The notes beneath the pieces are model-generated. The model worked only from the letters and a program-made list of their open reading frames with translations. It ran no database searches and was not told where the DNA came from. Shown here piece after piece: positions 1 through 45,379 of a DNA stretch of 64,000 bases (positions are counted from its first letter, which is position 1; every line of letters starts with the position of its first letter). The position numbers and the translations under genes were made by a program. Origin of the DNA: Limonium bicolor (taxonomy: Eukaryota > Streptophyta > Magnoliopsida > Caryophyllales > Plumbaginaceae); NCBI GenBank assembly GCA_023374045.1, contig CM041776.1, positions 141,673,296 through 141,737,295 on the forward strand, written 5' to 3'.

Positions 1-3000
1 CTCAGTTGCTATCGAATAACCCAAGTTTTGGAAGCTTCACATTGTGCCAAGAAGCAACCAAGGGAGACAGCTAAGATAAGAGGTGAGCCATCCTTAAATT
101 TAATACACCAACAAAAACGAAAGAAACCAATCTATCAAGTGTAACCTGATAACTTGTTTCAGTTTCTAAAACTTTGTGTTTCTGTTTATTAACTTCTCAG
201 AGTGCAGTCAGTGTTGTTGTGGGTTGCTTTCGAGAATGAAATCACATTAAACTAACTAGCTAATCAACTAAAGAACTCTGAAAGATAAGAAAAGAAACCT
301 AAACCATCTGATGTTGAAGAGTACCAGTCAAAACTGATAAACATGCCAAACCTGTAGCATGTAGTCTCAGTGTACTAAATGTCCCTGGGTAGTCTTGAGT
401 TGCTAATACATTTACAATATTATACATGCACCTGACTAAGTGTCTAAACGTGAGGGTGTTGGAAAAACAAGAAACAACTTCAAAGGATAGAAAAAAGATG
501 CACCAGTTACACCTCCTGTTCTATTTCAGTTTCAGTGGCCACACTATATTGTGTTGGGTTAATTCTGAGAGTATAAACTATACTAAGGTCTTAATTAAGC
601 AGCTAAACCATTTGAGGGAATTAGAAAACAAGAACCATGCACAAAACAAAAAGAAAAGATAACCTGATCATGTGGTAGTGTATGGCAGTTTCACAGTTGC
701 AGTTTTTCAGATTTTCATTTGTTGTTGGTTCTGTGTAATTAAGCACAGAAACTATACGGGTATCGACTTGGGTTGTTTGAGGTTGAAAACTTACTAAAAC
801 CCTTAACTCATTAACTAGACACGTTTGGGGAAAATAAAAACCCAGATCTGTGAATGAAAAGAACAACAGAAGAAGGAGAAGTTACCAGTTTTGCAGTTGC
901 AGTTCTTTTGGTTTCTTAATTCTGTTTTGGGGACTTCTCACCAGTTCTGACTTATTGTATTTCGTTACCTGAGGGCTAGAACAATAATAAAATACCTAAT
1001 TAAGTAACTAAAGCAGTTGAGGAAAACTTAGAAGTAGATTAGATAACAGAAGCAAAACAGAAATGAAATAGAAGAGGAAGAAGATATCAGTCTCAGTTTG
1101 TCAGCTTCTAAAATTCTTTATTTCAGTAAGGGTGAGTTTCTATAACTTTAATAACATTTGCCCTGGGTCTGTTTGGAAGTTGATGCAGAGGTAAACCACT
1201 TAACTAATGAGGGAAAACAACTTGGGAGGAACTGGAAACAGATTTAAAGAGCAACAAGGAAGAAAAAAATCGTTTTCTATATAACTCTGTTACAGAGGGT
1301 TGTAGTGGTGTGCTCAAGAGCTAAAGACTGTATTAAAACACATAAATGAGTCACTAAACAAGTAGGGGAGAATTGAAAACCATAGGGTAAACAAAGAACA
1401 GAAATCTGATGAGAGAAGGTTTATCAGTTTCTGTTTTTGCATTCTATCAGCTTCTGATTTCAAGGATTTTAGTTTGTGTAAGAAGTTGTGTGACTTTAGC
1501 TTACTGTCTAGGGTTGTCTTAAAAATGAAACAGTATTAAAACACACGCCTAAGTAGTTGAGCAAGTTGGGGGAAAACAGAAAAGAGACTAAAAGGACAGA
1601 AACCAACAATAGCAGAAAAGTTCACATCAGATTATCAGTTTTCAGATTTGTGTTCAGTTCTCTGTACAGAGAATTAAGTGAGTATTATTGGTAGTTTTGA
1701 GTTTAAAGAGGAGATTAAACACTTATCTGAGTAAGAAGTACATAGGGGTAAGGTTGAGAGACAGTTAGGTGAGTAACAGAATGGAATAAAAGAAAAGATA
1801 GCAGAGTTTAATGCTTCAGTTCTATGTTTTGTTTCTGGAAGTTGACTTTTGTATAACTATGTGACAGTGGACTGTTTGGGGTTGGTTTCAGTTTAAAATT
1901 GGGGTATAATACTCAACTAGATAGGTAAGCACCTTGAGAGAGATTTGAAAGAAAGAATTGTAATTAAACAGGAATGAATCAATGAGAACGCATCGGGTTT
2001 CATGGTTTTTCAGTTTTAGTTTCTAATTGCCTTTTTGTATCTGGTTCTGTGTAATTAATTACAGATGCTATGTGGGTGTTTTATGAGTATAGTCTTGAGT
2101 TTAAACCAAGGTTAACACCCATAACTAGTGGGTAAACGCTGCAGGAAAGAAACAAACATAAACTGAACTAACTAGCAACAAGAACCAAGAGGGAATGTGT
2201 AGCTTGTGCTTCAGTTTCATTGATGTTATAGCTCCTGTATAACTGTGTTACAAGGGTATTATAAGTGTGATTCTAGTTTAATAATGAACCTAAATAATAG
2301 CTAATAAATATAACTAGGTTAGCGAAACATGTGGAGAAGGTTAAACATCAACTACTACATTAAAAGTGAAGTTAGATAAGGTGTTACATGGGAATTGTGC
2401 TTCAGATTTGGAAACTTTTGGGCTTCTGTATAAATGGGTTTTAGGGGTATTCTACGGTCTATATTATCATGATACAAGGGTTAAAACATTGCTCACATAT
2501 TTAGCTAGGAGGGAATACACTTTAGACAAGCTAAATCTATCTTATTTAAACATGTTACATGGTTAACACTTAAAATGCTCTAAAACATTAGCTAGGAAAA
2601 AGGACTTAGTAACATGTAAAATAAGGGTGTGAATGCCCTAGAAGTAACATAAAGTTTAATACGTGGGAAGTCCTAAGGGCTAATAAAAGTTGAACATTCA
2701 ACAAAGATTCATCTAGGGAAATAACACACGATAAATAGTTTGATAAATTTGGGAAGTGTCACAAAGGTCGTCACATGAAATCATAAACTGACGCATTGTT
2801 TGTAATTAACGCTAGGGCCATAGCGAACTCCGACCGGGACCCCGTGAGTGAGACAAATCATACTTTCGAATAAGGTATGGATATGTGTGGTCCGTATGTT
2901 GCCGTGTTACACGGCTTGTTTGCTGTGTGCCTTGTGTGAAAATGACCATAAGATTAAAGCATGAAATTGGATTGCTTTCTTATCTTGCTTATATGATTGC

Positions 3001-4222
3001 TATATCATTGTCGCATATTATTTTGCGCGCACACAGTGGTTTAGTCCCTTTCTCGTTTATGGAACTTTGAGATGGAACCTGATGAACTAAGTAAACGAAA
3101 CAAGAGAATTATACAAAGAGAAAACTCCTCTCTAACTATAGAGGACTTCTAATGACACCCACTATGGTGTCAAGCTATTGATGATAATGATAAGTAAATA
3201 TCAGCTGGTGGAACACGAAGATAATCCAGGAAGATAACTTCTCGGGCCGTGCGGTAGGGACGCTCGGGAGTTGGTATCTGCATCAGATCCTTCGACCGAC
3301 TATTGGTGGAGCACATCTTGGGGTCTAGAGGTGACCCTCTTTCTCGACGCATGACACCGGGAATGGAGGATTAGTTATGGAGAAGACGTTCTCCATCTTG
3401 TGGTGATAAGAGATTCACACATAATCCTTAAGAGATAAGGAACAAATTGGCAACTACATGGTATGGTCACGGGAACTAAATTATATCCCAGACCTGGAGC
3501 AAGGAAGGAGCAAGGAAATATACACTATGGGAATAAAGGAAAAGAATCCAAAACACACGACGATTGAATGGTCCCACTGTGAGGACCATCAACACTTGTA
3601 TTCTTTGGCACGTCCTATTTGCATACATGTTTGATGTGCTAAGTTGCTATCCATGTGTTCTGCTTGTTTGGAGTCCTTATGTGATACTTCATGTTGTGTG
3701 TTACTGTTTTTTATAGCATGCAAATTGGACTTAATAATATTCGACCAAATAGTCGTGTAGCCCGGCAACATACGGGCTACACATATTCATACTCAGCATA
3801 GTTTTGCTGAGTCCTTTATTTTTACAGGTATGAAACTGGAAGCAGGCGGAGAGTAGGCAGGGTGACTACCATGGGGGTAGTCCATCTAGACAAGACTTTT
3901 AAGTAGTATGTTTTAATGAATGGGTTGTGACTATGTAACACTAAACCCTGGACGTACTTTTCGGTTTATGTTGTCTAATTAAGAACTTATGTTGTAGACT
4001 CTCGGTACTTGGTTTGTATTTCCTGTTGTACTTGGATGTGGTTAAGGTTTAAATTCAAGTCATTCAGACCGTAGCTTGGTGTTGATAGTGTTGTTGTGTC
4101 AACCACGTGGGTCGTTGGCGTCTGTGACACCCGGATGGAGTCGTAAATCCGTTGCTTAGACTTATCATGATATTATGTGGCACATTGGTCATACTGTGGT
4201 TTGGTTATTCGGGGGTGTTACA
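1..4222 (+). repeat. Element A 5' LTR, right-hand part
   Basis: This stretch matches 56379-60636 nearly base for base, with about 18 differences in the first 360 bases by eye. It ends GTTACA at 4222 and is followed by the PBS. The first roughly 1.8 kb of this LTR lies left of the window, judging from the 3' copy. It holds no credible gene: the short ORFs it contains recur in the other LTR only because the LTRs are copies. A conserved CCACGTGG palindrome lies near 4103, in the same place relative to the LTR end as in element F. Confidence 0.93.
150..2560 (+). repeat. Degenerate tandem repeat of about 190 bp inside the element A LTR
   Basis: A loose pattern recurs about twelve times. Each unit has a CAGTTTCTG-like block, a TGTGTAATTA or similar block, a GGTTGTTTGAGGTT-like block, then an AAACACxxAACTxAxTAACTA block followed by GGGGAAAA. 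Recognisable units lie near 250, 580, 805, 1000, 1190, 1340, 1550, 1720, 1920, 2110, 2300 and 2490. The same series is present in the 3' LTR from about 56530 to 58975. The units are too diverged for an exact period to be set by eye. Confidence 0.5.
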
Positions 4223-4227: not shown

Positions 4228-4254
4228 TGGTTTCAGAGCGTAGTTGCGCTCTGA
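4228..4254 (+). other. Element A primer binding site with overlapping hairpin
   Basis: TGGTTTCAGAGC at 4228-4239 differs by one base from the usual initiator-methionine tRNA PBS TGGTATCAGAGC. It starts five bases after the LTR end at 4222. Its 3' part forms a perfect stem with the following bases (TCAGAGCG at 4233-4240 pairs with CGCTCTGA at 4247-4254, six-base loop). Element F has the same arrangement with a longer stem. Confidence 0.85.
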
Positions 4255-4419: not shown

Positions 4420-5065
4420 ATGTCTAGACGACGAGGTCGAGGATGAGGTCGTGGCCACATGGAGCAAGATAGCATTGCTGCAGGGCAGACCATAGCTGAG
4501 ATAGTAGCAGCAGCCCTAGGTCACATGGGTTTCCAGCCAGGCCCAGCAGGCACCACCGGCACCACAGCCTCACCCACCCAGGGAGACAAACTGGGTGAAG
4601 AGCTTAGCAGACCTTCGACCAGCTGAGTTCCGAGGAGAGTCAGACCCCACCTACTTAGAGAACTACATCAGTCTCCTTGAGACCGCCTTCGAGACTTTGA
4701 ATGTTTCGGCAGAGGCTAAGGTCAGACTCGCAGCCTACTACCTCAGAGAGTCAGCGAGCGATTGGTGGAAACTTGTGAAGAATGCTTACCTGGCCGACCC
4801 CATGTTCGGGTGGGATGCTTACACTGCACTGCTAAGAGCCAAGTACTACCCCGCCCATCTTCGGACGAAGAAGCAGGTTGAGCTAGACACCCTGAGACAG
4901 ACAGAGGGAATGACAGTAGATGACCACTATGCAGCTTTCACTTCTCTCCTCCGTGTACTACCAGGCTTGGGATATTCAGATGAGATCTTAGTGGAGCGTC
5001 TTTATGGTGGGCTGAGCCACCGCATCCGATATGGCATGGGGCCCAGCCGTTACGCCACGATCTAG
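4420..5065 (+). pseudogene. gag: Element A gag exon 1 (capsid/retrotrans_gag domain), broken
   Basis: The open part (4595-5065, 156 residues) carries a typical plant retrotransposon Gag capsid region, with WWKLV near residue 57, YTALLRAKYYP and YGMGP near the end. It aligns with the gag of element F at 45600-46061. The likely start is the ATG at 4420, which begins an arginine/glycine-rich leader. A TGA at 4444-4446 (CGA in origin) and a frameshift near 4530-4580 break it. The exon ends at 5065 with TAG where F has CAG, directly before a GT donor. Gag proteins build the cytoplasmic virus-like particle. No function is expected of this copy. Confidence 0.9.
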
Positions 5066-5136
5066 GTTGAACTTGAACTGTGAATTTGTATTGAATGTTA
5101 TATTGTGAAGAGTTTACTAAACCCTATTTTGCACAG
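5066..5136 (+). other. Element A gag intron 1 (GT-AG, 71 nt, phase 0)
   Basis: The sequence starts GTTGAAC and ends TTTTGCACAG, with a plausible branch site TTTACTAAA near 5114. The flanking coding sequences join in frame at exactly the position where element F has its own intron (46062-46156), and the two introns share no obvious sequence. Downstream both elements continue with codons for C-Y-H-A-A. Confidence 0.82.
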
Positions 5137-5360
5137 GACTGCTATCATGCAGCCTCCCAGGTCGAGATCACTGTCCAGATGCGGGATGAGGAATTCGCTA
5201 AGAAAAGGAAGGCTAAGGGCGGTGACTCAGAGGACCGTAAACAGAAGGGCGTGAGAAGGAACAAGTACTACCCGAGCAGGAAACGGGCGAGATTCCATGG
5301 GAGCAAGCCTACCGAGACACTACAGTTGAGCCGCCCGGCGATTGCAGCTAAGCCGCTACG
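5137..5360 (+). pseudogene. gag: Element A gag exon 2, first part
   Basis: The exon encodes a basic region beginning DCYHAA, then VEITVQMRDEEFAKKRKAK, and ending AAKPLR. This matches the start and end of exon 2 in element F (46157-46418). Element B is inserted right after the codons for KPLR. The exon continues for 17 bases at 15796, beyond B and the duplicated CTACG. Confidence 0.87.
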
Positions 5361-5940
5361 TGACAAGGATAAGAATATGACGAAGACAAGGGGGTCAAAG
5401 CGGTCTAGGCCACAGATCCCGGTCCAGACCCCGGGACCCCTTCAGGACCTTGTTCGGGCTCCAGTTTGGGCGCCAAACATCATTCTGGCCCGCATTCTAT
5501 AATCGGGTCCCGTATTCCGGCCCGCATTCCATAATCGGGTCCCGTATTCCGGCCCCGCACTCCATGATCGGGCCCCTTATTCCGGCCCCGTGCCCCGTGA
5601 CCGGATCCTGCATCTCACACTTTGGGAACGGAAGGCTTTACAAGGAGAGATGTACCAAAATTAAGGAGGTTGCTCTAATAAAGTGATAACACATGTACAA
5701 GGATTAAGAGAGAGACTTCACCACATAAAGTCTATAAATAGAGATGGGGGGCTCATTTGTAAGGGGACACATTATGAGAAGAGAGAGAAAATACTAGAAA
5801 GCTCTCTAAAGTTGTAATACCAAAGTAGGGAATAAAGATATTGTCTAGAAGTGGATGTAGGCCGGATTATTGGCCGAACCACTATAACTCTCGGTGTTCT
5901 GTACATTTGTGAGATTGGAGGGACCAATTATGTATTTTCA
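5361..5940 (+). repeat. Element B LTR 1 (5' LTR)
   Basis: This 580-bp LTR starts TGACAAGGATAAG and ends GTATTTTCA. It contains a GC-rich stretch of repeated CCCGTATTCCGGCCC units (5511-5600), a TATA box and an AATAAA signal near 5830. Three more copies are present in the element. Confidence 0.94.
5731..5743 (+). promoter_or_regulatory. TATA box of element B LTR
   Basis: TCTATAAATAGAG is a good plant TATA box. It recurs in every LTR copy (12367, 13979 and 15583). Transcription would be expected to start about 30 bases downstream. The AATAAA near 5830 could serve 3' end formation. Confidence 0.72.
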
Positions 5941-5942
5941 TT

Positions 5943-5960
5943 TGGCGCCGTCTGTGGGAA
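5943..5960 (+). other. Element B primer binding site
   Basis: TGGCGCCGTCTGTGGGAA lies two bases after the LTR end. It is the PBS type common in plant Tat/Ogre-group elements, where an arginine tRNA is the reported primer. The tRNA assignment comes from knowledge of that family and was not checked here. Confidence 0.78.
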
Positions 5961-7227
5961 TCGAACAGCTAGAGAAACAGCAACCACGATTTATCCACAG
6001 GCGAGAGTAATAGTTGGATCAAGGAGAAATGCCGGAGGAATTCGCAGAAAATTCATTCAAATTAACGCTTCGCAAGAGAATGAAAGAAAGGAATTCACAT
6101 CGAGCTTCGATTGAGAAAGGAGGGGATGAATCTGATCGACGTTCAGAAAATCAAGAGAGAACTACCTCATCTTACGAAGGATTAATTCTCGTACAACCAT
6201 GAAATTCGGGACGCGATTCTAAATCTGGACGCTTCGATGCCACTGAAATCCAAAGTTCATGAAGAGGAGTTTAACATTAATTCCTGATTCTAGCTAACGA
6301 TTCGCGTTACAACCAGAGTCAACTTTCGACTCAACATTAGCAGGCGCACTCAATGTTGGAAACATCGATCATAAAAAGAACGAGAGGCCAAGGAGCATCT
6401 TACAAGAAATTTGGGAGATGTCCCAGGCGATTCAGCGCGGAGCAATCAGTTAATTCACTGGAAGATTGGGAACAACATTCGAAGAGAATGGTTTCGTCCC
6501 TTCATCGAGGCATAATCGGCAAGATTATGCCTAAAGCAACAGTTCGGAGATCTGCTAATCGATCGCTACTCTCAATAGCGGAGAAAGAGCCTGCGGGGGA
6601 AGAACCTAGCGCCATATCATCAGAGAAGCAGCAATCAAAATTGCTCAACTGGAAGGGATGATTTTGGTTTAAAGCACAGAGGATTAAATGACTTTGGAAA
6701 GCAATTTCAGGAATCAGAAGGGAGAACCCTATCGATTAATGGGGAATGATAAAAAATCAGGAAGCAAAGCCAAATCGACGCTTAATTTCTCCCCTTACTA
6801 AAATATTCTTTAATCGTTCTTTTGTTTATACTTTAAGAACTTTTATCTCATTCTCAGATTAACTCAGGACCGCAAGTCTTCTTTCGCAAAGAAGGCATTG
6901 CTCGCGGCTATGGATTGAGCAAAAGATCCTTCCGGCTGTATACGTCCCGCTCAACTTCGGGAATGTGAAGTAAAAGAAGGGACAAGCATCTCAATTCGGC
7001 CGAATGGCATCAGTTGGAAAGCATGTCAACCAGACGATTATAGATCCAAAAACCAGACGGACAGATCGATGACGAATAAACATCACGGCTATGCACCGAC
7101 AACAATCAAAACAAAAAAAGAGAGATCCCAAAGCCACTGCGGCTAGAAGTTACTTCAACCAAGTCAGAGGTTAAGGAGTAGGAAATTGTACGCCAATCGA
7201 CATCAATTTGTTTGAGACCGGGAGATG

Positions 7228-7268
7228 ATGACCGGAAGCCCATGACCGGAAGCCCATGACCGGAAGAC
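7228..7268 (+). repeat. Short tandem repeat, about 16-bp unit, 2.5 copies
   Basis: The unit ATGACCGGAAGCCC occurs three times in succession, with the last copy diverging. It lies just upstream of the 83-bp array and shares its CCGGA-rich composition. Confidence 0.7.
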
Positions 7269-7501
7269 AGCTCGACTTCCTTGGCCGCATCTCAGTCCTT
7301 GGCCGCACCAACTTCCTTGCTGACAACGGCCAGAAGCTCCTTGACTGGAGGAAGGATGACAACGACCGGAGGCAAGTGAAAGGCCGGACGATGTCACCAA
7401 CTAGGAGCCACGCGGCATCTTCCTTCCAGGATGGGTCGAAATCTCAAAACCAAGCTAGAAACAACTCCAAGGCATTGATAATGGATAAAATAGCAATTTC
7501 T

Positions 7502-7830
7502 CGACCGCATCTCAGATGTTGGCCGCATCAGCTATTTGACCGCATGACTTCTTCGCCGCAGCAATTTCTTTGGCCGGATCTCCACGACCGCATCTCAGAT
7601 GTTGGCTGCATCAGCTATTTGACCGCATGACTTCTTCGCCGCAGTAATTTCTTTGGCCGGATCTCCACGACCGCATCTCAGATGTTGGCCGCATCAGCTA
7701 TTTGACCGCATGACTTCTTCGCCGCAGTAATTTCTTTGGCCGGATCTCCACGACCGCATCTCAGACGTCGGCCGGTATCTCAGATTTTGGCCGGACCGGA
7801 AGACAATTTGGCTTTTTTGACCGCATCCTC
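7502..7830 (+). repeat. 83-bp tandem repeat in element B, three full copies and a partial one
   Basis: Units begin CGACCGCATCTCAG at 7502, 7585, 7668 and 7751, a constant spacing of 83 bases. The first three are nearly identical. The fourth diverges after about 20 bases and fades into related GGCCGGA-containing sequence. The unit is GC-richer than its surroundings and has no open frame of note. Confidence 0.9.
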
Positions 7831-10800
7831 AAGTGCAAAATTAGATGATGTCTTCGACTCAACACAAGACGACGCACTGGGAGCCGAATGAAGCAAAGAA
7901 AAAAAAAGGGCTAGAAGTCGTAAAATCAACTAAGGACTACTAGCAGAGGAACGACATTCGAAGGCAATCACTAAAGATAAGTCCACCAATCCTAAAGGCT
8001 AACTCATATTTACGATCTGTTGAACATATCTATTGCCTCTCTTTGTGTTATAAGGCGTAAATTAAAAGTCTAAACACCTCTCAAATCTCAGAAGATCTGT
8101 TTGTATCTCGTCTTAAATGTTGGACCTGCATTTGAAAAACTTCACTTCCTTCTTGCAAAAGCTATTGTTTTGCTAAACAACGGGAATTCTTAGGCCTAGC
8201 CTAAAAATGATTTATTTTGGCATACAAAAATTTCTGCCTGATTCTTTCAGTCTGCTTGATTGTTTACCTCGTTTAAATTCAGTTGCACTACTCTTGTTTA
8301 TACTGCCCAGTTCGGTTGTACAAGCAAATGCTCACTTTTTAACCATATTATTTGGCTTCCAAAACCGTTATTTGATCAAGAGACCCATTCTAGCAAGCAC
8401 ATAGCTTCCAAAATCAAATGTTTTTGTTTTACTGATGCAAGCAAAAAGTTCTATATGTTTATGTTACTTCAGATTGTTTTTTAACACTTCCATGTCACCC
8501 TCCGCACAATTTCTAGTCGTTTTTGCTACAATGAGGTTTTTGTTTCAACACTTACGACTTGCATTTCTCTGCACCCTTGGAGTCTGGTGTTTCAAGTTCC
8601 CAAGGTCATGTACATATTTTTTCTGCTAGCAGATACCAGAGTTTGAGTAAATTTTACCCCTTGATTCACGGCCCGTTTTGAGCAACCCAACTAGTCCAAT
8701 TGCTTACTGTTGTTAACAACTAGCCTGCAAAATTGCAACCCAGGATTGTTCACAAAACCATAAACGGATATTTTTTACGGTCTAAAGATGTAAGGTGTAT
8801 ATCTGATTAACTTGACTTCTGCTTATACAGTAGCATGGGCACTCTGTTTACTCCTGTTTTCTGCTGCTCAAATTTTTAATAAAACGTCGCTTTCAACAAA
8901 TGATCCTGCTTAAGCACATTCTTGCTCCGTTTTGTCCTCGCCAAAAAGAACACCAGTCATGTGCATATATTTTTTAGCAGCAAAAGCACGAGTTATGTGT
9001 GTCATGTCTATTGGCTTAAAATACTCAGTTATAGTGTTGTAACATATGCTCTACTTCTGCTTTGATTTATTCACTATAGCCCGTTTATCTCTACCTAATA
9101 TGTGCTTTTGTTCAGTTTTTAACCGACATACTAGTTAGGATTCAGGAATAATGCTCATACCTTTGCTCCAGCTTTCCCGTTTGTGTTTACTTTTTGTTGG
9201 TTCTTATTTTGTTATTACTTACGCAAAAGACAAGCTTCTGTTACAGTAAACAATTAACCTGATATAATAAAGGCCTGTTACAGTCATTTTATTCTTTGCC
9301 TAGAATAATATAAGCCTTGTCTGTCACTATGATAGTACTTTCGGCCTGTCGGCAAGCCACATTAGGACTACACCATTTGGCAAAGCTGATTGCATGACTT
9401 GATTATAATTCACTACTATTGCTGTTTGTGCATATTGGTTAACAGTTTCTGAGTCTTCACGTCTTGAACATCATACAAACTCAAAACTGAATAGGTATTG
9501 CCGTATATTTCTTTGTATATTGCTTTCCTTCACAATAATTGGTTGTCATACAATAACAGTATAAGCTGTTTTGCTGCCTCTGTGTGCTTTAGTATGTTTA
9601 TCTGTACATTGGTGGGTGACTTCACTTGATTTTTTCTGGTCTGACTCAAATCTGTTTTAAATATCTTCTGAGGGGATTCAACCGATTACTCCAAGGTCAA
9701 AAAAAAGACCAAGTAGCAGAAGGAGAAGCCTAAAACTGAATAAAGCCAATTCCGCCAGAAGTGCTGACATCAGCATATTTCGCTTGACGCAATTGTGGGC
9801 GAGTCTGGGTGAACAATTTGGATTTTGCCGTCCCTAAGATAAAGTGGCCAGGGGGAAACAATTTGTTTTTGGGTAAAGGCTGTAATAGCAGAAGGGGCTC
9901 TGGGGTTTCCCATGTCGCCTTCAGACTGGATAATGCCATTCGGTAGATAGCATCAGGTGAAAGCAGAAAACCATAAGATATATGACGGTGGACTGTCAAG
10001 GAGAACTTCAAAGAAGTACGAAAATGAGAGATCTTCATCAATAAGAGCCGGCCGGAGGATAAAAGAAGAGAATCCTGGGGAATAGTGCTAATCGATCGGT
10101 TAACAGCCTAGGTGCTATCACGATCAAAGTATTATGTCCATATCATTACAGCCGGATAAAAGAAAGAATTCTCCTCTCCGGAGCATTGTTTTTTCAACCC
10201 AGAATTAACGTTATTGGCACGCTTAGTCACCGGTCCAGAATATCAACCAAACACTACCAAGAGGTGATTAATATTTTGCTATTAAGGGAGTAAAGGAGGT
10301 CCGGGCATACAAAAACAAAGCCCAGCTGGTGCCGCTCAGTTGCAAAGTGCTTGCATGACGTTCTAACAAAAGCAAGAGGAAAATTCCTGTTCTGATTCTG
10401 TGTTTCAAGATGTAAAAAGCGAGTGCTCACTTTAAAGAGTTCATCAGCAAACAGCTGGAGAAAGAAATCGAACACGCTTGGTGTTTCCGGACAAGCCTTT
10501 GGATTCCCGCAAGTGCATCAATAAAGTGAAGGAATGAGGAAATGGAGAGACAATCTCTGTCGCTAAATTTGGGTTAGGAGCTGCTATGTTCTACGACAAG
10601 AACACGGAAGTTTGGAAAAAGTGCAGCTTCAGCATTTTATGGGTGCCTATCGGTTACATCTCTACAAGCTAATTGCTTCGGCCACAGGTCCACTAGTGCC
10701 GCATCGGATGGAACTGTATGCTGATGACAGTTGGATCAAGAAGAGAGAATAGTTATGTTTGGCCTTATGGAGAGAACCCCAGCTCACTGTCTAGAAATGT

Positions 10801-11028
10801 CACCCTGGAGGAACATTTTTTATCTCCAGAGCAGCAGTGTGAAGGCTGAGATCAGTCAAGCAGAAGGCAGTGCCCAGGAGGGCCGCTCACTTGGTATCTT
10901 GTAAAAAATCTATCTCAACAAAATTTCAAAGGGTCTGCATCATTTCTGCACTATCATACTAATAAGTTTATAAAGAAAGTGCAGGTACCCTTTTTCCAGG
11001 GGACTGATCACCCCCTGAGGTAATAAAA

Positions 11029-11341
11029 GAAAGCACCGGCGAACGAGCCGCAGGCACTTGTGCCTTGAAAGTAAAAGAAAGCACCGGCCAACGAGCCGCA
11101 GGCACTCGTGCCTTGAAAGTAAAAGAAAGCACCGGCCAACGAGCCGCAGGCACTTGTGCCTTGAAAGTAAAAGAAAGCACCGGCCAACGAGCCGCAGGCT
11201 ATCATGCCTTGAGAGAAAGCACCGGCCAACGAGCCGCAGGCTATCATGCCTTGAAAGTAAGCACCGGCCAACGAGCCGCAGGCTATCATGCCTTGAAAGT
11301 AAGCACCGGCCAACGAGCCGCAGGCACTTGTGCCTTGAAAA
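11029..11341 (+). repeat. Palindromic tandem repeat array 1 of element B
   Basis: There are seven units of 43-48 bp, each AAAGCACCGGCCAACGAGCC followed by GCAGGC, a variable centre, GCCTTGAAAG and a spacer. In four units the centre makes a perfect 6-bp inverted repeat (AGGCAC, two bases, GTGCCT). In the middle three the centre is TATCAT, leaving only AGGC/GCCT paired. Long ORFs here in several frames on both strands result from a near-47-bp repeat free of stops and are not genes. Confidence 0.92.
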
Positions 11342-11997
11342 GTAACACTTTGGGTTGAAATGAAACCCGGCCATTGAGCCAACAAAAAAAAAACAAAAAA
11401 AAACCCATCTCTGGACCCATCAAGAGCTCTGGTCGCCTGTAATGGGTGCATTGTTAGGTGTGGGACGCCGCACCATACCTGAATCACAAGTACCATCCTT
11501 TGGCTAGCATAAGCAAAATTGGGAAAATATATTATCTTTATTCTCCCTTTAAGGGAATTATCATCCTTTGGCTAGTAAAAGCAAAGACTTAATCATCATA
11601 TTATTTCACCCTTTCAAAAAGGGAATGGTTCTTTTAGTAAGAACCATTGGTCTTTTTATGAAGATCTTATTATGGACTTCTGGATTTCTGGCCTTCTTAA
11701 ATATTATATATCAGAACATCAGGGATCCATCCATCAAGATATTACGGGCTCCACAAGATATATTGTCTCAAAGATTATGTCCCAGAATTTCCAATTTGTC
11801 AGAAGGAAGACACTTGTGGGACTTTGATTTTACTGTACCAACTTCTTTTTATAAGTTCATTTTTCTTTGTAAAAGCTAAAGAAAAAGAACTTGTAGGACT
11901 AGAAGATAGGAGAAGGGAAGAAAGAATGTAAATTTCAATTTTTCTTTGTAAGTTCCACTTTTTTTTAAGTAGGAAAAAGTAGAACTTGTGGGACTGA
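11342..11997 (+). other. Element B 3' spacer with A-tract and hairpin
   Basis: An A-rich tract lies at about 11382-11403, and a perfect inverted repeat lies at 11624-11648 (AATGGTTCTT, five-base loop, AAGAACCATT). A duplicated CATCCTTTGGCTAG motif occurs at about 11495 and 11562. The sequence before the LTR (GTGGGACTGA) is the only PPT candidate and is weak. I see no gene. The same spacer occurs twice more at 12949-13609 and 14557-15213. Confidence 0.7.
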
Positions 11998-12576
11998 TGA
12001 CAAGGATAAGAATATGACGAAGACAAGGGGGTCAAAGCGGTCTAGGCCACAGATCCCGGTCCAGACCCCGGGACCCCTTCAGGACCTTGTTCGGGCTCCA
12101 GTTTGGGCGCCAAACATCATTCCGGCCCGCATTCTATAATCGGGTCCCGTATTCCGGCCCAGATTCAATAATCGGGTCCCGTATTCCGGCCCCGCACTCC
12201 ATGATCGGGCCCTTATTCCGGCCCCGTGCCCCGTGACCAGATCCTGCATCTCACACTTTGGGAACGGAAGGCTTTACTAGGAGAGATGTACCAAAATTAA
12301 GGAGGTTGCTCTAATAAAGTGATAACACATGTACAAGGATTAAGAGAGAGACTTCACCATAGAAAGTCTATAAATAGAGATGGTGGGCTCATTTGTAAGG
12401 GGACACATTATGAGAAGAGAGAGAAAATACTAGAAAGCTCTCTAAAGTTGTAATACCAAAGTAGGGAATAAAGATATTGTCTAGAAGTGAATGTAGGCCG
12501 GATTATTGGCCGAACCACTACAACTCTCAGTGTTCTGTACATTTGTGAGATTGGAGGGACCAATTATGTATTTTCA
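11998..12576 (+). repeat. Element B LTR 2
   Basis: This is a complete LTR, TGACAAGG to TATTTTCA, with a TATA box at 12367. It is followed directly by TAAAGAAAGTGC, which is internal sequence from the 3' half of the element and not a PBS. Confidence 0.93.
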
Positions 12577-12634
12577 TAAAGAAAGTGCAGGTACCCTTTT
12601 TCCAGGGGACTGATCACCCCCTGAGGTAATAAAT

Positions 12635-12948
12635 GAAAGCACCGGCCAACGAGCCGCAGGCACTTGTGCCTTGAAAGTAAAAGAAAGCACCGCCAACGAG
12701 CCGCAGGCACTCGTGCCTTGAAAGTAAAAGAAAGCACCGGCCAACGAGCCGCAGGCACTTGTGCCTTGAAAGTAAAAGAAAGCACCGGCCAACGAGCCGA
12801 GGACTATCATGCCTTGAAAGAAAGCACCGGCCAACGAGCCGCAGGCTATCATGCCTTGAAAGTAAGCACCGGCCAACGAGCCGCAGGCTATCATGCCTTG
12901 AAAGTAAGCACCGGCCAACGAGCCGCAGGCACTTGTGCCTTGAAAAGT
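12635..12948 (+). repeat. Palindromic tandem repeat array 2 of element B
   Basis: The unit order and centre types match array 1. Small differences are one lost G in the second unit and a rearranged GAGCCGAGGAC in the fourth. Confidence 0.92.
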
Positions 12949-13609
12949 AACACTTTGGGTTGAAATGAAACCCGGCCATTGAGCCAACAAAAAAAAAAAA
13001 ACAAAAAAAAAACCCATCTCTGGACCCATTAGGAGCTCTGGTCGCCTGTAATGGGTGCATTGTTAGGTGTGGGACGCCGCACCATACCTGAATCACAAGT
13101 ACCATCCTTTGGCTAGCATAAGCAAAATTGGGAAAATATATTATCTTTATTCTCCCTTTAAGGGAATTATCTTCCTTTGGCTAGTAAAAGCAAAGACTTA
13201 ATCATCATATTATTTCACCCTTTCAAAAAGGGAATGGTTCTTTTAGTAAGAACCATTGGTCTTCTTTATGAAGATCTTATTATGGACTTCTGGATTTCTG
13301 GCCTTCTTAAATATTATATATCAGAACATCAGGGGATCCATCCATCAAGATATTACGGGATCCATCAAGATATATTGTCTCAAAGATTTATGTCCCAGAA
13401 TTTCCAATTTGTCAGAAGGAAGACACTTGTGGGACTTTGATTTTACTGTACCAACTTTCTTTTTATAAGTTCATTTTTCTTTGTAAAAGCTAAAGAAAAA
13501 GAACTTGTGGGACTAGAAGATAGGAGAAGGGAAGAAAGAATGTAAATTTCAATTTTTCTTTGTAAGTTCCACTTTTTTAAGTAGGAAAAAGTAGAACTTG
13601 TGGGACTGA

Positions 13610-14185
13610 TGACAAGAATAAGAATATGACGAAGACAAGGGGGTCAAAGCGGTCTAGGCCACAGATCCCGGTCCAGACCCCGGGACCCCTTCAGGACCTT
13701 GTTCGGGCTCCAGTTTGGGCGCCAAACATCATTCCGGCCCGCATTCTATATTGGGTCCCGTATTCCGGCCCAGATTCAATAATCGGGTCCCGTATTCCGG
13801 CCCCGCACTCCATGATCGGGCCCCTTATTCCGGCCCCGTGCCCCGTGACCAGATCCTGCATCTCACACTTTGGGAACGGAAGGCTTTACTAGGAGAGATG
13901 TACCAAAATTAAGGAGGTTGCTCTAATAAAGTGATAACACATGTACAAGGATTAAGAGAGAGACTTCACCATAGAAAGTCTATAAATAGAGATGGGGGGC
14001 TTTGTAAGGGGACACATTATGAGAAGAGAGAGAAAATACTAGAAAGCTCTCTAAAGTTGTAATACCAAAGTAGGGAATAAAAATATTGTCTAGAAGTGGA
14101 TGTAGGCCGGATTATTGGCCGAACCACTATAACTCTCGGTGTTCTGTACGTTTGTGAGATTGGAGGGACCAATTATGTATTTTCA
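13610..14185 (+). repeat. Element B LTR 3
   Basis: This is a complete LTR starting TGACAAGAATAAG with a TATA box at 13979. It is followed by TAAAGAAGTGCAGG, the same joint as after LTR 2 with one A lost. Confidence 0.93.
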
Positions 14186-14242
14186 TAAAGAAGTGCAGGT
14201 ACCCTTTTTCCAGGGGACTGATCACCCCCTGAGGTAATAAAT

Positions 14243-14556
14243 GAAAGCACCGGCCAACGAGCCGCAGGCACTTGTGCCTTGAAAGTAAAGAAAGCACCGG
14301 CCAACGAGCCGCAGGCACTCGTGCCTTGAAAGTAAAAGAAAGCACCGGCCAACGAGCCGCAGGCACTTGTGCCTTGAAAGTAAAAGAAAGCACCGGCCAA
14401 CGAGCCGCAGGCTATCATGCCTTGAAAGAAAGCACCGGCCAACGAGCCGCAGGCTATCATGCCTTGAAAGTAAGCACCGGCCAACGAGCCGCAGGCTATC
14501 ATGCCTTGAAAGTAAGCACCGGCCAACGAGCCGCAGGCACTTGTGCCTTGAAAAGT
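14243..14556 (+). repeat. Palindromic tandem repeat array 3 of element B
   Basis: Seven units occur in the same order as array 1, which shows that the unit-level pattern predates the 1.6-kb triplication. Confidence 0.92.
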
Positions 14557-15213
14557 AACACTTTGGGTTGAAATGAAACCCGGCCATTGAGCCAACAAAA
14601 AAAAACAAAAAAAAAACCATCTCTGGACCCATTAGGAGCTCTGGTCGCCTGTAATGGGTGCATTGTTAGGTGTGGGACGCCGCACCATACCTGAATCACA
14701 AGTACCATCCTTTGGCTAGCATAAGCAAAATTGGGAAAATATATTATCTTTATTCTCCCTTTAAGGGAATTATCATCCTTTGGCTAGTAAAAGCAAAGAC
14801 TTAATCATCATATTATTTCACCCTTTCAAAAAGGGAATGGTTCTTTTAGTAAGAACCATTGGTCTTCTTTATGAAGATCTTATTATGGACTTCTGGATTT
14901 CTGGCATTCTTAAATATTATATATCAGAACATCAGGGGATCCATCCATCAAGATATTACGGGATCCATCAAGATATATTGTCTCAAAGATTTATGTCCCA
15001 GAATTTCCAATTTGTCAGAAGGAAGACACTTGTGGGACTTTGATTTTACTGTACCAACTTTCTTTTTGTAAGTTCATTTTTCTTTGTAAAAGCTAAAAGA
15101 AAAAGAACTTGTGGGACTAGAAGATAGGAGAAGGGAAGAAAGAATGTAAATTTCAATTTTTCTTTGTAAGTTCCACTTTTTTAAGTAGGAAAAAGTAGAA
15201 CTTGTGGGACTGA

Positions 15214-15790
15214 TGACAAGGATAAGAATATGACGAAGACAAGGGGGTCAAAGCGGTCTAGGCCACAGATCCCGGTCCAGACCCCGGGACCCCTTCAGGA
15301 CCTTGTTCGGGCTCCAGTTTGGGCGCCAAACATCATTCCGGCCCGCATTCTATAATCGGGTCCCGTATTCCGGCCCAGATTCAATAATCGGGTCCCGTAT
15401 TCCGGCCCCGCACTCCATGATCGGGCCCCTTATTCCGGCCCCGTGCCCCGTGACCGGATCCTGCATCTCACACTTTGGGAACGGAAGGCTTTACAAGTAG
15501 AGATGTACCAAAATTAAGGAGGTTGCTCTAATAAAGTGATAACACATGTACAAGGATTAAGAGAGAGACTTCACCACAAAAGTCTATAAATAGAGATGGG
15601 GGGCTCATTTGTAAGGGGACACATTATGAGAAGAGAGAGAAATACTAGAAAGCTCTCTAAAGTTGTAATACCAAAGTAGGGAATAAGATATTGTCTAGAA
15701 ATGGATGTAGGCCGGATTATTGGCCGAACCACTATAACTCTCGGTGTTCTGTACGTTTGTGAGATTGGAGGGACCAATTATGTATTTTCA
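15214..15790 (+). repeat. Element B LTR 4 (outer 3' LTR)
   Basis: This complete LTR ends TATTTTCA at 15790 and is followed by the TSD CTACG. Element A gag then resumes. Confidence 0.94.
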
Positions 15791-15795
15791 CTACG

Positions 15796-15812
15796 CTCCT
15801 ACCCACTTTAGG
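15796..15812 (+). pseudogene. gag: Element A gag exon 2, last 17 bases
   Basis: After the duplicated CTACG the reading frame continues with codons for S-Y-P, as in element F (KPLRSYPPK). It has a TAG at 15809-15811 where F has AAG. The exon ends in phase 1 just before a GT donor. Confidence 0.82.
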
Positions 15813-15893: not shown

Positions 15894-16250
15894 GATTTCG
15901 AGCCGGCTCGAGCAAAGGGGCCGAGCGCCGATTTATTTGAAGACGATGCTCCAAGAACCACCCCGGAGTTGATTGCCAGGGTGAGCCAGTGCAATGCTTT
16001 TACTGCAAGAAGCTCGGGCACAGAGCCTTTGAGTGTTTTGCGAATCCCAAGAGCAAGAACTACAAGCCCAGCTATTGTGGGAAAGGTGACCAGAGATCGG
16101 GACCCGGAGGCCAGCGTGGAGCCTCGAACACCCAGCCTACGCACGGAGCGGGATCCCGAGACCCCCAGAAGGCTTCACCCTCGAGGCCAGGGAAAGCGGC
16201 CTTGCACATCATGGACTGCACCGAAGGACCGGACACCTCTACAGCTACAG
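15894..16250 (+). pseudogene. gag: Element A gag exon 3: nucleocapsid with two CCHC zinc knuckles
   Basis: The second knuckle is intact: CFYCKKLGHRAFEC fits C-X2-C-X4-H-X4-C (start near 15989). The first, of the type C-X2-C-X3-H-X4-C, has lost its first cysteine to TGA at 15938-15940, followed by RRCSKNHPGVDC. Zinc knuckles bind the genomic RNA during packaging. A proline/serine/glycine-rich tail follows. The exon ends at 16250 in phase 1 at ACAG before the donor GTAAAC. Confidence 0.9.
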
Positions 16251-16380
16251 GTAAACTTTGAAACCTTAGATGTTTGAAAAGCATGACCAAATCTTTGTGT
16301 GCCAAGTTGTATGACCATGCATGACACCTGGTAGGTTACTAGCACCGCTAAAAACCTAGATTACTATTTAAATGCAGCAG
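16251..16380 (+). other. Element A intron 3 (GT-AG, 130 nt, phase 1)
   Basis: It starts GTAAACTTTG and ends ATGCAGCAG, which offers two in-frame acceptors three bases apart (after 16377 or 16380). Element F has the matching intron at 46845-46989, also phase 1. The downstream exon is the AlkB exon. The same donor could instead join the protease exon at 17245, which has the same phase. Confidence 0.8.
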
Positions 16381-17107
16381 GAGCCTTCGATATATACTTC
16401 CCAATAAATCCAAACCTCGAACCCGACGAGTACAACCTTGAGAATCCCCATTACCCAATCAGGAAGTGTCAAGTTATCCAGCCCGGGATGATTCTACTAC
16501 CAGGATACCTAACACCTGAAGCTCAAGTAGCCATTATTCGAAGATGCCGTAAGTTCGGAGTGGGACAAGGCAGGTTCTACACACCGACATACCTCGGAGG
16601 AAAGATGATGAAACTAAGAATGATGTGCCTCGGTAAGATTTGGAACCCATATACGAAGAGCTATCACACCGACGGACCACATGCACCACCAATTCCTGAA
16701 GACTTTCTATCTCTAATTACGGCAACCCTACGCGTTGCACAGCAATGCGAAGTACAACCAGTACCCGACCTACAAGCCGATATCTACATCATCAACTTCT
16801 ACGAGAGGGAAGGCGACTTGGATTACACAAAGAAAAGGACGAGACGTAGGAGTCCCTAGACCAAGGGATACCCATAGTGTCTGTGTCCATGGGAGATGAT
16901 GCTGAGTTCCTCTATGGTGAAGAAAAGAGGATTGACTGAGCTATGATGATCTGGCTAAAATCCGGTGACGTGTTGATCATGGGCGGACCATCGAGAATGC
17001 TATACCACAGGATTAAGAGAATCAAGCCAAACACAGCACCCTCAACAGTGATAAATGCTACCCATATGAAGCCTGGATGCCTAAACCTAACCATTAGGAA
17101 ATATTAA
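16381..17107 (+). pseudogene. AlkB-type 2-oxoglutarate/Fe(II) dioxygenase exon in element A, broken
   Basis: The translation carries the signatures of plant ALKBH1-like proteins in order: CQVIQPGMILLPGYLTPEAQ, GRFYTP, LRMMCLGKIWNPYT, IPEDF, IYIINFY, then VSMGDDAEFLYG, SGDVLIMGGPSR, PNTAP and LNLTIRKY followed by TAA. AlkB enzymes oxidatively remove methyl groups from nucleic acids. A one-base loss near 16821 and stops at 16847-16849 and 16937-16939 break it. Of the iron ligands, the first histidine (16826) and the second (17006) remain. The aspartate of HxD reads as glutamate (H-K-E), and the first arginine of RxNxTxR is cysteine. The element F copy at 46990 shares the same layout. I cannot exclude that a related dioxygenase family fits better. 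Confidence 0.9.
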
Positions 17108-17244
17108 GCCATGTACCTTTTGTATTAAGTTATGTAATGGAATGAACTTGTAATGTTGGAAAGATGAATAAAGAAAGGTTGATTATTTACAACTCTTCTC
17201 GTACCATCACTAATTATAGTTGTAAACGTTATTTTTGGGAATAG
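17108..17244 (+). other. Spacer between AlkB exon and protease exon in element A, probable intron end
   Basis: This 137-nt AT-rich stretch has no reading frame and ends TTTGGGAATAG directly before the protease-coding sequence. Element F has a 177-nt equivalent ending CCAATGAATTAG. After this AG the two elements align again as coding sequence in phase 1, which marks a conserved acceptor. An AATAAA at about 17168 could polyadenylate a Gag-AlkB transcript. Confidence 0.65.
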
Positions 17245-18510
17245 GTGTCGAACCCTGTAGAGAGGGTACCCTGAGCATTCTCACACAAGCTCAGGCCGGT
17301 GACAACGGCCATATTATCACTGGTATTTTCCCGGTGAATGGAGTCCCAGCCTTAGTATTATTTGACTCCGGAGCCTTACACTCATTCGTATCCCTGGTAC
17401 TAGCCGAGCAGTTGCACCTTGAGCCCGTGGAGTTGGAAGATTTCAGTGTGACACTACCGTCTAAAGAAAGAATTCGTTGTACCCGGTATTTCTGAGGAGC
17501 CACCATCAGAATCCGAGAGAAGGATTTCCCGTTGGACCTGATAGAGTTCAGAGGCCTGGGTTTTGACGTCATTGTGGGCATGAATTGGTTAGAGAAACAC
17601 CGAGGTCGTATATTGTGTGTCGAGCATAGATTACTGCTAAAGAGCCCGTCCGGTGTAACCGTATCATACTGTCAGAACCCCCGACAGCCGTCCGTGGAAA
17701 TCATTTCAGCCATGACCATGGCCAAAGAGATCCAGAAGCAGCAGGAGGTGTACCTCTGTTATGTACAGCATACTCAGCAAGACCCAGAGTTTAATCCAGA
17801 TGTACCCGTGGTTGGGGAGTTTCCAGACCTCTTCCCTAAGGAGCTTCTCGGTATGCCACCGTCCCGAGAGGTCGAGTTCACTATAGACTTAGTACCCGTG
17901 ACAGGACCTATTGCCAAAGCCCCCTACAGAATGGCCCCGACAGAGATGTTAGAGTTGAAGGAGCAACTGAAGGAGTTGTTGGATAAGGGATTCATACGCC
18001 CGAGCGTATCCCCTTGGGGCGCACCCGTACTGTTTGTCAAGAAGAAAGACGGCAGTCTCCGGTTATGCATTGACTATCGAGAGCTGAATGCAGTGACAGT
18101 GAAGAACCGCTACCCTTTACCACGCACAGATGATCTGTTCGACCAGTTTAGAGGAGCGATAGTACTTTCGAAGATAGATCTCAGATCAGGTTACCATCAG
18201 ATCCCCGCGAAGGAGAACGACATCGAAAAGACCGCATTTCGGACCCGATACGGCCACTACAAATTCACAGTTATGCCGTTTGGACTAACTAATGCCCCAG
18301 CAAAATTTATGGACTTGATGCACCGAGTTTTCAGAGATCAGTTGGAGTAGACAGTTGTGGTATTTATTAATAATATACTAGTTTATTCGAGAACCAAGGA
18401 AGAGCATCGCCACCATCTCAGGCAGGTACTCGAGATTCTTAGAGCCAACCTATTGTACGCCAAATTTGTAAGTGCGAATTTTGGTTAGATCAGGTAGCAT
18501 TTCTTGGACA
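17245..18510 (+). pseudogene. pol: Element A pol: protease and reverse transcriptase, inactive
   Basis: The aspartic protease motif FDSGALHSF lies at about 17361. RT motifs follow: [36 protein letters not shown] and [14 protein letters not shown] at 17493 (from CGA) and a TAG at 18348 (from CAG) interrupt the frame. The catalytic F-I-D-D reads F-I-N-N at 18363-18374, so both metal-binding aspartates are lost by G-to-A changes. A one-base loss near 18470 shifts the frame. The protease would release Gag and Pol products and the RT would copy the RNA to cDNA. Confidence 0.93.
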
Positions 18511-19316
18511 TGTCATTTCTGTTGCCGGGATAGCAGTTGATCCTGCCAAAGTGGAGGCAATACGTAGATGGCCGAGACCAAAGTCCATGACAGATATACG
18601 AAGTTTCCTTGGTTTAGCAGGCTACTACCGACAGTTTGTTAAGGACTTCTCCCGCATCACAAAACCTATGACAAACCTCATCAAGAAAGATACCCCTTTC
18701 ACGTGGACAGAAGACTGTGAGGCAGCATTTCAGAAGTTGAAAGACGCATTGACCTCAGCTCATATCCTCACATTTCCCGAAGGTACTGATGGATATGAAG
18801 TCTACTGTGATGCATCCGGTATGGGTATGGGATGTGTCCTCATGCAGCACGGGAAGGTTGTCGCCTATGCCTCCCGTTAGCTAAAGAAGCATGAGGAGCA
18901 CTACCCCACACATGATCTTGAGCTAGGAGCAGTCGTGTTTGCACTCAAAATTTGGCGCCATTACCACTGCGGTGTCCAGATTACCATCTACTCCGACCAT
19001 AAAAGCTGAAGTATGTATTCACCCAAAAAGAACTGAATATGAGACAGCACAAATGGATGGAGTTCCTCAAAGACTATGATATTAACCTCCAGTATAAGGA
19101 AGGCAAAGTCAATGTAGTTGCCGATGCACTTAGCCGCCAAGCTCACACATTGCATACACTCATAGCAGGTACCAGCCTAGTTGAAGAAGTGCGTAATGCT
19201 CAGCAGAACGATAGAGTAATGGCTGATATTAAACGGAAGTTAGTCGATTGCACACTAGATAAGAAGAAATACGACTACCAGCTTCATAAGGATGGCCTGA
19301 TCCATGTTAATGGCTG
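18511..19316 (+). pseudogene. pol: Element A pol: RT connection and RNase H, broken
   Basis: Readable motifs are FLGLAGYYRQFVKDFS, VYCDASGMGMGCVLMQ (first RNase H aspartate), [18 protein letters not shown] and [14 protein letters not shown] at 18878 (CAG in origin) and a frameshift near 19005 in the SDHKS region break the gene. A TGA at about 19315 replaces the arginine codon seen in F. Confidence 0.9.
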
Positions 19317-20394
19317 ATTATGTATTCCCCATGAGAGCGTAGAACTCAAAGGAGCGCATCATGAGAGAGTCCCATTCTTCTACTACATCTATTCACCCTG
19401 GAGCTTCAAAAATGTACAAAGACATGAAACGATATTTTTGGTGGGTTAGCATGAAGAACGACGTCTTGAACTTCGTTATCAGATGCCTCACCTGTCACAA
19501 TATAAAATTTGAACACCGAAAACCTGGAGGCACAGTTCAGCCAATGCCTATCCTAGAGTGGAAATTCTATGATCTATCGATGGATTTTGTAGTTGGACTA
19601 CCACCGACATGAGGAAGATTAAATATGATATGGGTAATTGTTGACCGCCTTACTAAGGTAGCACGATTCATTCCAATGAAGGACACATGGAAGGTGTCGA
19701 AACTAGCTGAGCTTTTTGATAAAGAGATTTTAAGACACCATGGAGTGCCAAAGACCGTAGTGTCAGATAGGGACACGAGATTTCTTTAGAGATATTGGAG
19801 AGCTTCACGAGAAGCGTTAGGCACCGAGCTGAAGCTCAGCACTGCTTTTCACCCGCAGACTGATGGTCAGACGGAGAGAACCATTCAAACCCTAGAGGAC
19901 ATGCTTAGAGCATGTGCCTTAGATTTCCAGGGCAGTTGGTTGGAAAAGTTGCACCTCATTGAGTTTGCATATAATAACAGTTATCACGCCTCAATTAAGA
20001 AGCCACCTTTTCAGGCATTATATGGTAGACCTTGCCGTACGCGGTTGTGTTGGGATGATTCCAGTGAAGCTTTTATCATAGGCCCAGACTATTTGCAGCA
20101 GGTTTAGGCTGAGGTTCAGCAGATCATAAGAACATAAAGGCAGCACAGGATAGACAGAAAGCATACGCGGATAACAGACGTCGAGACCTGGAGTTCACCG
20201 TTGATGACCAGGTGTTCTTGCGAGTGTCGCCGATGAAAGGAATTTTTAGATTTGGGCAAAAGGGAAAGTTGAGCCCGATATTCGTAGGCCCCTACAGTAT
20301 TAGGGAGCGTGTGGGCCCAGTTGCTTATCGACATGATCTACCCTCAGAGTTAGGACGATTTCATGATATATCACGTCTCTCAGCTCAAGAAATA
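19317..20394 (+). pseudogene. pol: Element A pol: integrase, broken and cut by element C
   Basis: The HHCC zinc-binding part (TTSIHPGASKMYKDMKRYFW, RCLTCH) and the DDE core ([28 protein letters not shown]) are recognisable. Stops lie at about 19609 (CGA to TGA), 19786 and 20105 (CAG to TAG). The C-terminal part (FLRVSPMKGIFRFGQKGKLS, VGPVAYR) runs to SQLKKY, where element C is inserted. The reading resumes at 39730. Confidence 0.92.
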
Positions 20395-40418: not shown

Positions 40419-40433
40419 TTTAAGGGGGTAAGT
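40419..40433 (+). other. Element A polypurine tract
   Basis: TTTAAGGGGGTAAGT lies directly before the TG of the 3' LTR and matches the PPTs of F (51503) and C. Confidence 0.87.
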
Positions 40434-45163: not shown

Positions 45164-45168
45164 AAAAT

Positions 45169-45196: not shown

Positions 45197-45379
45197 GACT
45201 AGAATACCGAGCTTGGGGATTACCGAGTTAGGAAACCTAACTACAATTACCTAAGTGAACAGTTATGGAAAGGTTAACCACTAACTAAGTGTGGAGATAC
45301 CTTATTATCGGGAAGCGTTACAACCGTTGGACCAATAAGTGTGCAAGCATATTGCTAATGAATATTCATGTGAATTCAG

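Follow-up and report, generated by a model that had tools for sequence, protein, structure and literature searches.

The 64,000-nucleotide stretch of Limonium bicolor DNA analyzed here (the window; G000:C1:141673296-141737295 of a 2.92 Gb genome) holds two Ty3/gypsy long terminal repeat (LTR) retrotransposons, element A and element B nested in it, in which an AlkB domain of ALKBH1 type separates the Gag zinc knuckle from the protease. We assign a probability of roughly 0.6 to the following reading: four subfamilies of this lineage carry the ALKBH1-type exon, subfamily B splices it both ways, and a Gag-AlkB protein is likely made, which would enter particles and demethylate the element's own RNA or complementary DNA (cDNA).

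An ALKBH1-type exon between gag and pol

An earlier note made from the sequence of the window (the original prediction) had placed an AlkB-like stretch of ALKBH1 type at 16381-17107, in the order CCHC, AlkB, RVP and RVT. Pfam and PDB searches bear out the stretch through matches to PF13532 and to rice ALKBH1, and the domain matches agree with both the order and the type. Three pieces of the element A stretch match PF13532 (1.5e-10, 0.0012 and 2.5e-12, the middle piece lying below the Pfam cut-off), and the first piece alone finds rice ALKBH1 (5xeg, so named in the available part of PMC8118384) by phmmer at 4.5e-25. A chance match is ruled out by these Pfam and PDB results. The element B copy in the window is decayed, and its pieces have no PF13532 match in the Pfam search; its sister copies align with the A exon at 62%. 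All four sister copies tried match PF13532 (1.6e-45 to 3.8e-48). When searched in PDB, copy L018 finds rice ALKBH1 best (5.1e-68), followed by E. coli AlkB and human ALKBH1, and ALKBH5 is absent from its 21 hits at E ≤ 1. Identity to rice OsALKBH1 (5xeg) is 47.6-49.1% in five A and B copies and 51.6-55.6% in five C and D copies. Sister copies combine the PF13532 match with the HxD, distal His and Arg residues of AlkB/ALKBH1 enzymes, whereas the iron-binding HxD of the element A copy in the window reads H-K-E (HxE); the frame of that copy shifts near 16.8 kb and then meets two in-frame stops.

Position 16381 is the first base 3' of a splice acceptor and the AlkB frame closes at its own stop (Table 1), so AlkB is a separate exon and no continuous part of Gag-Pol. 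The idea that AlkB is simply built into the polyprotein is not supported: without splicing, the Gag frame runs into a stop codon within intron 3, before AlkB, in 20/20 A copies, and spliced copies either join or skip AlkB. A separate late insertion of AlkB, which the original prediction had also considered, is ruled out, as the exon occupies the identical site between the same exons in the 20 A sister copies fetched and the order is the same in the B, C and D copies read.

Alternative splicing recorded in subfamily B DNA

Intron borders were read from the sequence first and then checked across copies, using 20 copies fetched from the 39 other scored A copies and 15 from the 39 other scored B copies. 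Among the 20 A copies, the intron 3 donor is always GT (CAG/GTAAAC in 17), the pol acceptor is always AG, and the AlkB acceptor has two tandem sites, at least one of which reads AG; since these sites are 3 nucleotides apart, the frame is kept either way. Exon 3 ends after codon base one, while AlkB and pol each begin at base two, so that the phases agree for both acceptors and Gag reads in frame into AlkB, with its own stop, or into pol. The AT content of introns 1, 3 and 4 is 72, 64 and 69%, against 40-53% in exon stretches; intron 1 measures 69-72 nucleotides in the 17 A sister copies in which both ends were found, and a branch-point-like motif (YTNAY) precedes the pol acceptor in 19/19 A copies.

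If spliced RNAs are made, some of them should be reverse transcribed and inserted, so the junctions were sought in genomic DNA with 23-base probes (at most two mismatches; the reversed-form control was 0 in each answered search). The B junction of Gag to pol, with AlkB skipped, was found at 14 places, six of them exact, and the B junction of Gag to AlkB also at 14 places, ten of them exact. The A junction of Gag to pol was found at two places and the C junction of Gag to AlkB at one. Of the 28 B junction copies, four were read. Introns 1 and 2 are gone from L055, as is the entire stretch from intron 3 through AlkB to intron 4; in L054 the latter stretch alone is missing. L056 lacks intron 3 but retains AlkB, intron 4 and the gag introns, and in L057 introns 2 and 3 are missing while intron 1, AlkB and intron 4 are still in place. 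Intron 2 is thus missing in two subfamily B copies (L055, L057). In both AlkB-included copies read (L056, L057), the AlkB stop is followed by unspliced intron 4, as expected of a Gag-AlkB message.

Both splice choices are recorded in subfamily B DNA. As read from these DNA copies, forms with and without introns coexist with both junctions, which makes AlkB an alternatively included exon and Gag-AlkB a likely product beside Gag-Pol. Spliced copies are a minority: the longest open frame among the 148 element-type places described below is 286 amino acids, and 15/15 B copies keep the intron 3 donor and acceptor.

Constraint on the AlkB exon

The A exon is open from the acceptor to a common stop at codon 241 in 13/20 copies; since L009 and L010 share the same exon sequence, the distinct open copies number 12. 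The B exon is open to codon 245 in 5/15. HxD is kept in 11 of the 12 distinct open A copies, the distal His likewise in 11 and the C-terminal Arg motif in all 12, and all three are kept in the five open B copies. Variants shared by at least two A copies comprise 29 synonymous and 13 nonsynonymous changes (pN/pS 0.13), whereas singletons comprise 46 and 80 (pN/pS 0.51; P = 3e-4, Fisher's exact test); with 13 copies the two ratios are 0.16 and 0.52. On average, dN/dS is 0.27 among A copies and 0.23 among B copies, and in 60 pairs of one A and one B copy the proteins are 62% identical at saturated synonymous sites. Purifying selection acts on the AlkB exon within A and is evident when A is compared with B. 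Variation among A copies rises from the AlkB exon (0.047) through intron 3 (0.061), intron 4 (0.074) and exon 3 (0.085) to the protease (0.086). The reverse transcriptase (RT) could not serve as a control for selection, as just 2/19 copies have an open gap-free stretch of 284 codons.

Genomic copies and origin of the exon

A DNA search with the A exon gave 3853 first-look candidates, of which the best 40 were scored, the 39 others being 92-94% identical; with the B exon, the best 40 of 5102 candidates were scored and the 39 others were 90-93% identical. A search with a rice ALKBH1 piece returned 37,376 loose candidates, and the best 150 scored all lie below E 3e-35. These 150 places consist of two of the host gene and 148 with the span of an element copy (366-375 nucleotides), five of which were read; comparison by eye found no overlap of the 148 with the A and B lists. 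The AlkB exon, as judged by these sequence matches, likely stands at no fewer than 228 places (at least) in the genome.

Among the five copies read, L049-L052 represent subfamily D and L053 subfamily C, giving four related AlkB-bearing Ty3/gypsy subfamilies; the introns flanking AlkB were traced in A, B and C, those of C from L053. A CCHC stretch lies upstream in all five C and D copies and a protease downstream in four, as found by tblastn, which detected no protease in the 1.4 kb covered for L051. When the best 40 of 4923 candidates were scored with C, the 39 others were all 98% identical, which indicates that C spread recently. At G000:C1:497429250-497470362, five B-type AlkB exons stand about 10.1 kb apart, as would be expected if units of one internal region and one LTR were repeated in tandem. 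Outside this genome, no relatives were found at E ≤ 0.001 in the protein database, nor in IMG/VR, scanned with pieces of AlkB and RT.

The host ALKBH1 gene occurs in two copies (L047, L048), 99.4% identical and 133 Mb apart on C3; the pair reflects either a recent duplication or an assembly effect. The AlkB domain of the host gene is split by introns and the element exon is intronless, which fits the capture of a spliced mRNA. AlkB identity is 58-75% between subfamilies and 49-59% between the elements and the rice and host enzymes, while rice and host share 60%. A tree without an outgroup parts cellular from element sequences at 100/99 support. The element thus likely captured a cellular ALKBH1, as the original prediction had proposed, and the simplest reading of the sequences would be a single capture of spliced host ALKBH1 mRNA before the subfamilies split.

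Proposed function and alternatives

Reverse transcription of LTR elements yields single-stranded DNA inside Gag particles. Rice ALKBH1 is described as a DNA N6-methyladenine (6mA) demethylase in the available parts of PMC10469495 and PMC8118384, and as preferring single-stranded or unpaired DNA in the former. The single-strand preference together with reverse transcription in particles makes the action of Gag-AlkB in the particle a likely mechanism. Splicing would join Gag to AlkB, giving a Gag-AlkB protein that ends at AlkB's own stop, and alternative splicing past AlkB would give Gag-Pol; Gag would carry AlkB into particles, and AlkB there would act on methylated adenine of element RNA or of single-stranded cDNA. 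We infer that both proteins are produced, that the AlkB domain is active, that it reaches particles by way of Gag and that its substrate is methylated adenine. A bolder formulation, held tentatively and at somewhat under even odds, is that the captured demethylase forms a splice-controlled capsid module, in which one choice would load a Gag-linked eraser of 6mA or RNA N6-methyladenosine (m6A) and the other the polymerase, so that the parasite would bring its own adenine-mark eraser to the place where cDNA is made.

Several points weigh against this proposal. The proposed function is predicted from DNA sequence, and both AlkB copies in the window are decayed. Of the open A copies, one is without HxD and a different one without the distal His. 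The junction probes found no place in the genome with the A junction of Gag to AlkB, with either acceptor, and YTNAY precedes the AlkB acceptor in only 3/19 A copies; given the mostly missing motif, inclusion of AlkB may be a weaker splice choice than that of pol. The comparison of shared and singleton variants in B, with five copies, showed no difference (five synonymous and four nonsynonymous against 16 and 13). Furthermore, copies were chosen by AlkB similarity, which favors an intact AlkB and biases both the open fraction and the comparison of exon and intron variation. When the tree is rooted with E. coli AlkB, a distant outgroup, the best tree breaks the element group, although a single clade is not rejected (P = 0.155, approximately unbiased test).

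Gag-AlkB could instead repair packaged RNA or single-stranded cDNA by reversing alkylation damage (1-methyladenine, m1A, and 3-methylcytosine, m3C), a role that has been proposed for the AlkB of plant RNA viruses. E. coli AlkB chains form the second-best group of solved relatives, and a repair role for viral AlkB is mentioned in the available part of PMC9289625; but the nearest solved relative is rice ALKBH1, the 6mA demethylase of the sources cited above. Sequence cannot separate repair from erasure; we regard repair as unlikely though well worth keeping in view. A smaller chance still attaches to a host target, whereby Gag-AlkB would alter host transcripts or chromatin marks to weaken silencing and would do so outside the particle: rice ALKBH1 affects the chromatin state, according to the available part of PMC10469495, and cellular RNA has been suggested as one possible target of an orchid enzyme (PMC9289625), whereas the splice layout fuses AlkB to Gag and so points to particles.

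The remaining alternatives dispense with the enzyme or with splicing. An inert AlkB exon might owe its retention to its stop and splice sites, which would govern how much Gag is made relative to Gag-Pol, given that pol is reached only by splicing past AlkB; any stop would serve that end, yet the A and B proteins remain similar over saturated synonymous sites, catalytic residues are kept and the changes shared among A copies are mostly silent, which leaves this passenger role improbable. It is very improbable that the junction copies arose by deletion or descend from an older AlkB-free element. For each of the four B junction copies, 0.9-1.95 kb of sequence was read, and the A and C junction places were identified by probe alone; the three separate segments gone from L055, each at GT...AG, are nevertheless hard to explain except by splicing, and the probes match at least 21 of 23 bases, with the exact hits given above.

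Structure of the elements in the window

Nested LTR elements make up much of the window (Table 1). Element A, with the target duplication AAAAC, spans from upstream of the window to 60636 and is interrupted in three places: 5361-15790 belongs to one other element, 20395-39732 to inserted elements and 41273-55420 to element B. Pieces of its 5' LTR are 94.6-95.9% identical to 40434-41272 and 55426-60636, and the region at 39733 directly continues 20394 in the three sister copies compared. The primer-binding site (PBS) sequence TGGTATCAGAGC, which we take to be of tRNA-Met type, is found upstream of gag in 15/20 A sister copies.

Table 1 Coordinates of elements A and B and of associated features in the window
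Feature	Position	Strand	Evidence or remarks
Element A 5' LTR	1..4222	+	start upstream of window at L029:6538; TG...CA ends, AAAAC both sides
Element A PBS, altered form of TGGTATCAGAGC	4228..4239	+	sequence
Element A gag exon 1 and first part of exon 2, intron 1 at ~5066-5136	4520..5360	+	translation
Other LTR element nested in A, interrupts gag exon 2, outside the system	5361..15790	.	target duplication CTACG
Element A gag exon 2, end	15791..15812	+	sequence and codon phase; first five bases are the target duplication
Element A intron 2	15813-15893	+	sequence and codon phase
Element A gag exon 3, CCHC zinc knuckle CFYCKKLGHRAFEC	15894..16250	+	sequence
Element A intron 3, ends at AlkB acceptor	16251..16380	+	127-130 nucleotides in 20 copies
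AlkB exon, element A (decayed copy)	16381..17107	+	PF13532; 5xeg; own stop codon 17105-17107
Element A intron 4 (AlkB 3' untranslated part and intron)	17108..17244	+	ends at pol acceptor ATAG/GTGT
Element A pol: protease, RT, RNase H, integrase (decayed)	17245..20394	+	RVP_2, RVT_1, RT_RNaseH_2; integrase by similarity to B
Element A, rest of internal region up to polypurine tract	39733..40433	+	AAGGGGG tract
Element A 3' LTR, first part	40434..41272	+	resumes at 55426-60636 beyond element B; AAAAC at 60637
Element B, nested in A 3' LTR	41273..55420	+	target duplication GAAAG; LTRs 41273-45164 and 51519-55420
Element B PBS TGGTATCAGAGC	45170-45181	+	sequence
Element B gag	45339..46844	+	exon 1 to 46061, intron 1 46062-46156, exon 2 46157-46418, intron 2 46419-46502, exon 3 (CCHC) 46503-46844
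AlkB exon, element B (decayed; HQD readable)	46990-47709	+	donor 46844/46845 and acceptor 46989/46990 agree with junction copies
Element B pol	47887..51228	+	acceptor 47886/47887, in agreement with junction copies; integrase with C-terminal SH3_Tf2-1

The gag of element B matches Retrotrans_gag (1.2e-17), its CCHC motif being read from the sequence (zf-CCHC_3 merely 0.019). The integrase ends in SH3_Tf2-1 (1.7e-27) with a weak Chromo match (E 5e-4; 20.4 bits, below the cut-off of 25.1), and the elements bear some resemblance to the Tekay chromoviruses of plants. LTRs, a 5-bp target duplication, PBS, polypurine tract and the order gag, protease, RT, RNase H and integrase are all present, as in Ty3/gypsy LTR retrotransposons. 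The Kimura two-parameter distance of the LTR pair is 0.0385 in element A and 0.0093 in element B (98.2% identity), so A is the older, consistent with B being nested in it. Assuming 1.3e-8 substitutions per site per year, the LTRs are about 1.5 million years old in A and about 0.4 million years in B. Despite its near-identical LTRs, element B has an AlkB, protease and RT full of frameshifts, whereas its gag and integrase are readily legible; proteins supplied in trans may have copied it, or that stretch may contain sequencing errors.

At 10967-15790, within the element that interrupts gag of A, a 1.6-kb unit with inner 48-nucleotide repeats stands three times in tandem, and its right end recurs at 5361-5941; these units are apparently LTRs of the nested element. 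Another gypsy element, at 29109-39729, has LTR pieces 96.4% identical and a gag of one open frame with CCHC. Its gag, CCHC and protease are almost adjacent and AlkB is absent from between them, which shows that not even all gypsy elements in the window have the AlkB layout. ARAGORN found zero tRNA genes within the window.

Comparison with known systems

The original prediction knew of no described retrotransposon family with this layout. A Ty3/gypsy family of orchids that carries an AlkB demethylase was in fact published in 2022 (PMC9289625), with another AlkB subfamily and another layout. The Phalaenopsis lineage Gypsy_Pa_2799 carries an ALKBH5-type m6A demethylase with m6A activity shown in vitro, and a screen of 121 genomes reported no 2-oxoglutarate-dependent dioxygenase (2-ODD) domain in other angiosperm genomes (PMC9289625). 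The lineage is sister to Ogre within Tat, with a tRNA-Arg primer, a single Gag-Pol open reading frame (ORF) and AlkB ending a separate 565-amino-acid ORF2 (PMC9289625). Like the elements described here, it is a plant Ty3/gypsy lineage with large LTRs, an AlkB (2-ODD) domain with cofactor residues kept, and many copies. The orchid AlkB is of ALKBH5/9 type and lies outside Gag-Pol, whereas here it is of ALKBH1 type, judged by PDB ranking, and forms an exon between the gag and pol exons; the PBS here is TGGTATCAGAGC in place of that for tRNA-Arg, the integrase end is chromovirus-like, AlkB is alternatively spliced and its activity is predicted. In the open-licence literature, the orchid family was the sole AlkB-bearing plant retrotransposon found; most subscription journals and all bioRxiv preprints lay outside this scope. 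An AlkB in a plant Ty3/gypsy element is thus already known in kind, and the splicing layout looks new.

The capture described here is likely independent of the orchid one. A second, likely independent AlkB capture by a plant Ty3/gypsy lineage, differing in subfamily, place and mode of expression, would strengthen the case for adenine methylation of transposon RNA or cDNA as a real control point. Moreover, genomic copies of spliced RNA record which isoforms were made, without RNA data.

The rice enzyme OsALKBH1 has the same domain and the same HxD...H...R residues, but is a cellular gene, whereas here the domain is one intronless exon spliced to Gag. In plant RNA viruses, AlkB lies inside the replicase and is not known to involve splicing. 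These viruses, whose AlkB domains are mentioned in PMC9289625, resemble the present elements in having an AlkB domain in a parasite genome. According to the available parts of PMC12786077 and, for Ogre, also PMC6317226, plant LTR elements are generally without introns, Ogre and EVADE being exceptions, and EVADE and BARE1 make spliced short Gag messages (PMC12786077). In Ogre, EVADE and BARE1, as here, splicing of a fraction of the transcripts decides between LTR-element products; in the available parts of these sources no captured enzyme is switched in this way, whereas the choice in the elements described here would be between Gag-AlkB and Gag-Pol.
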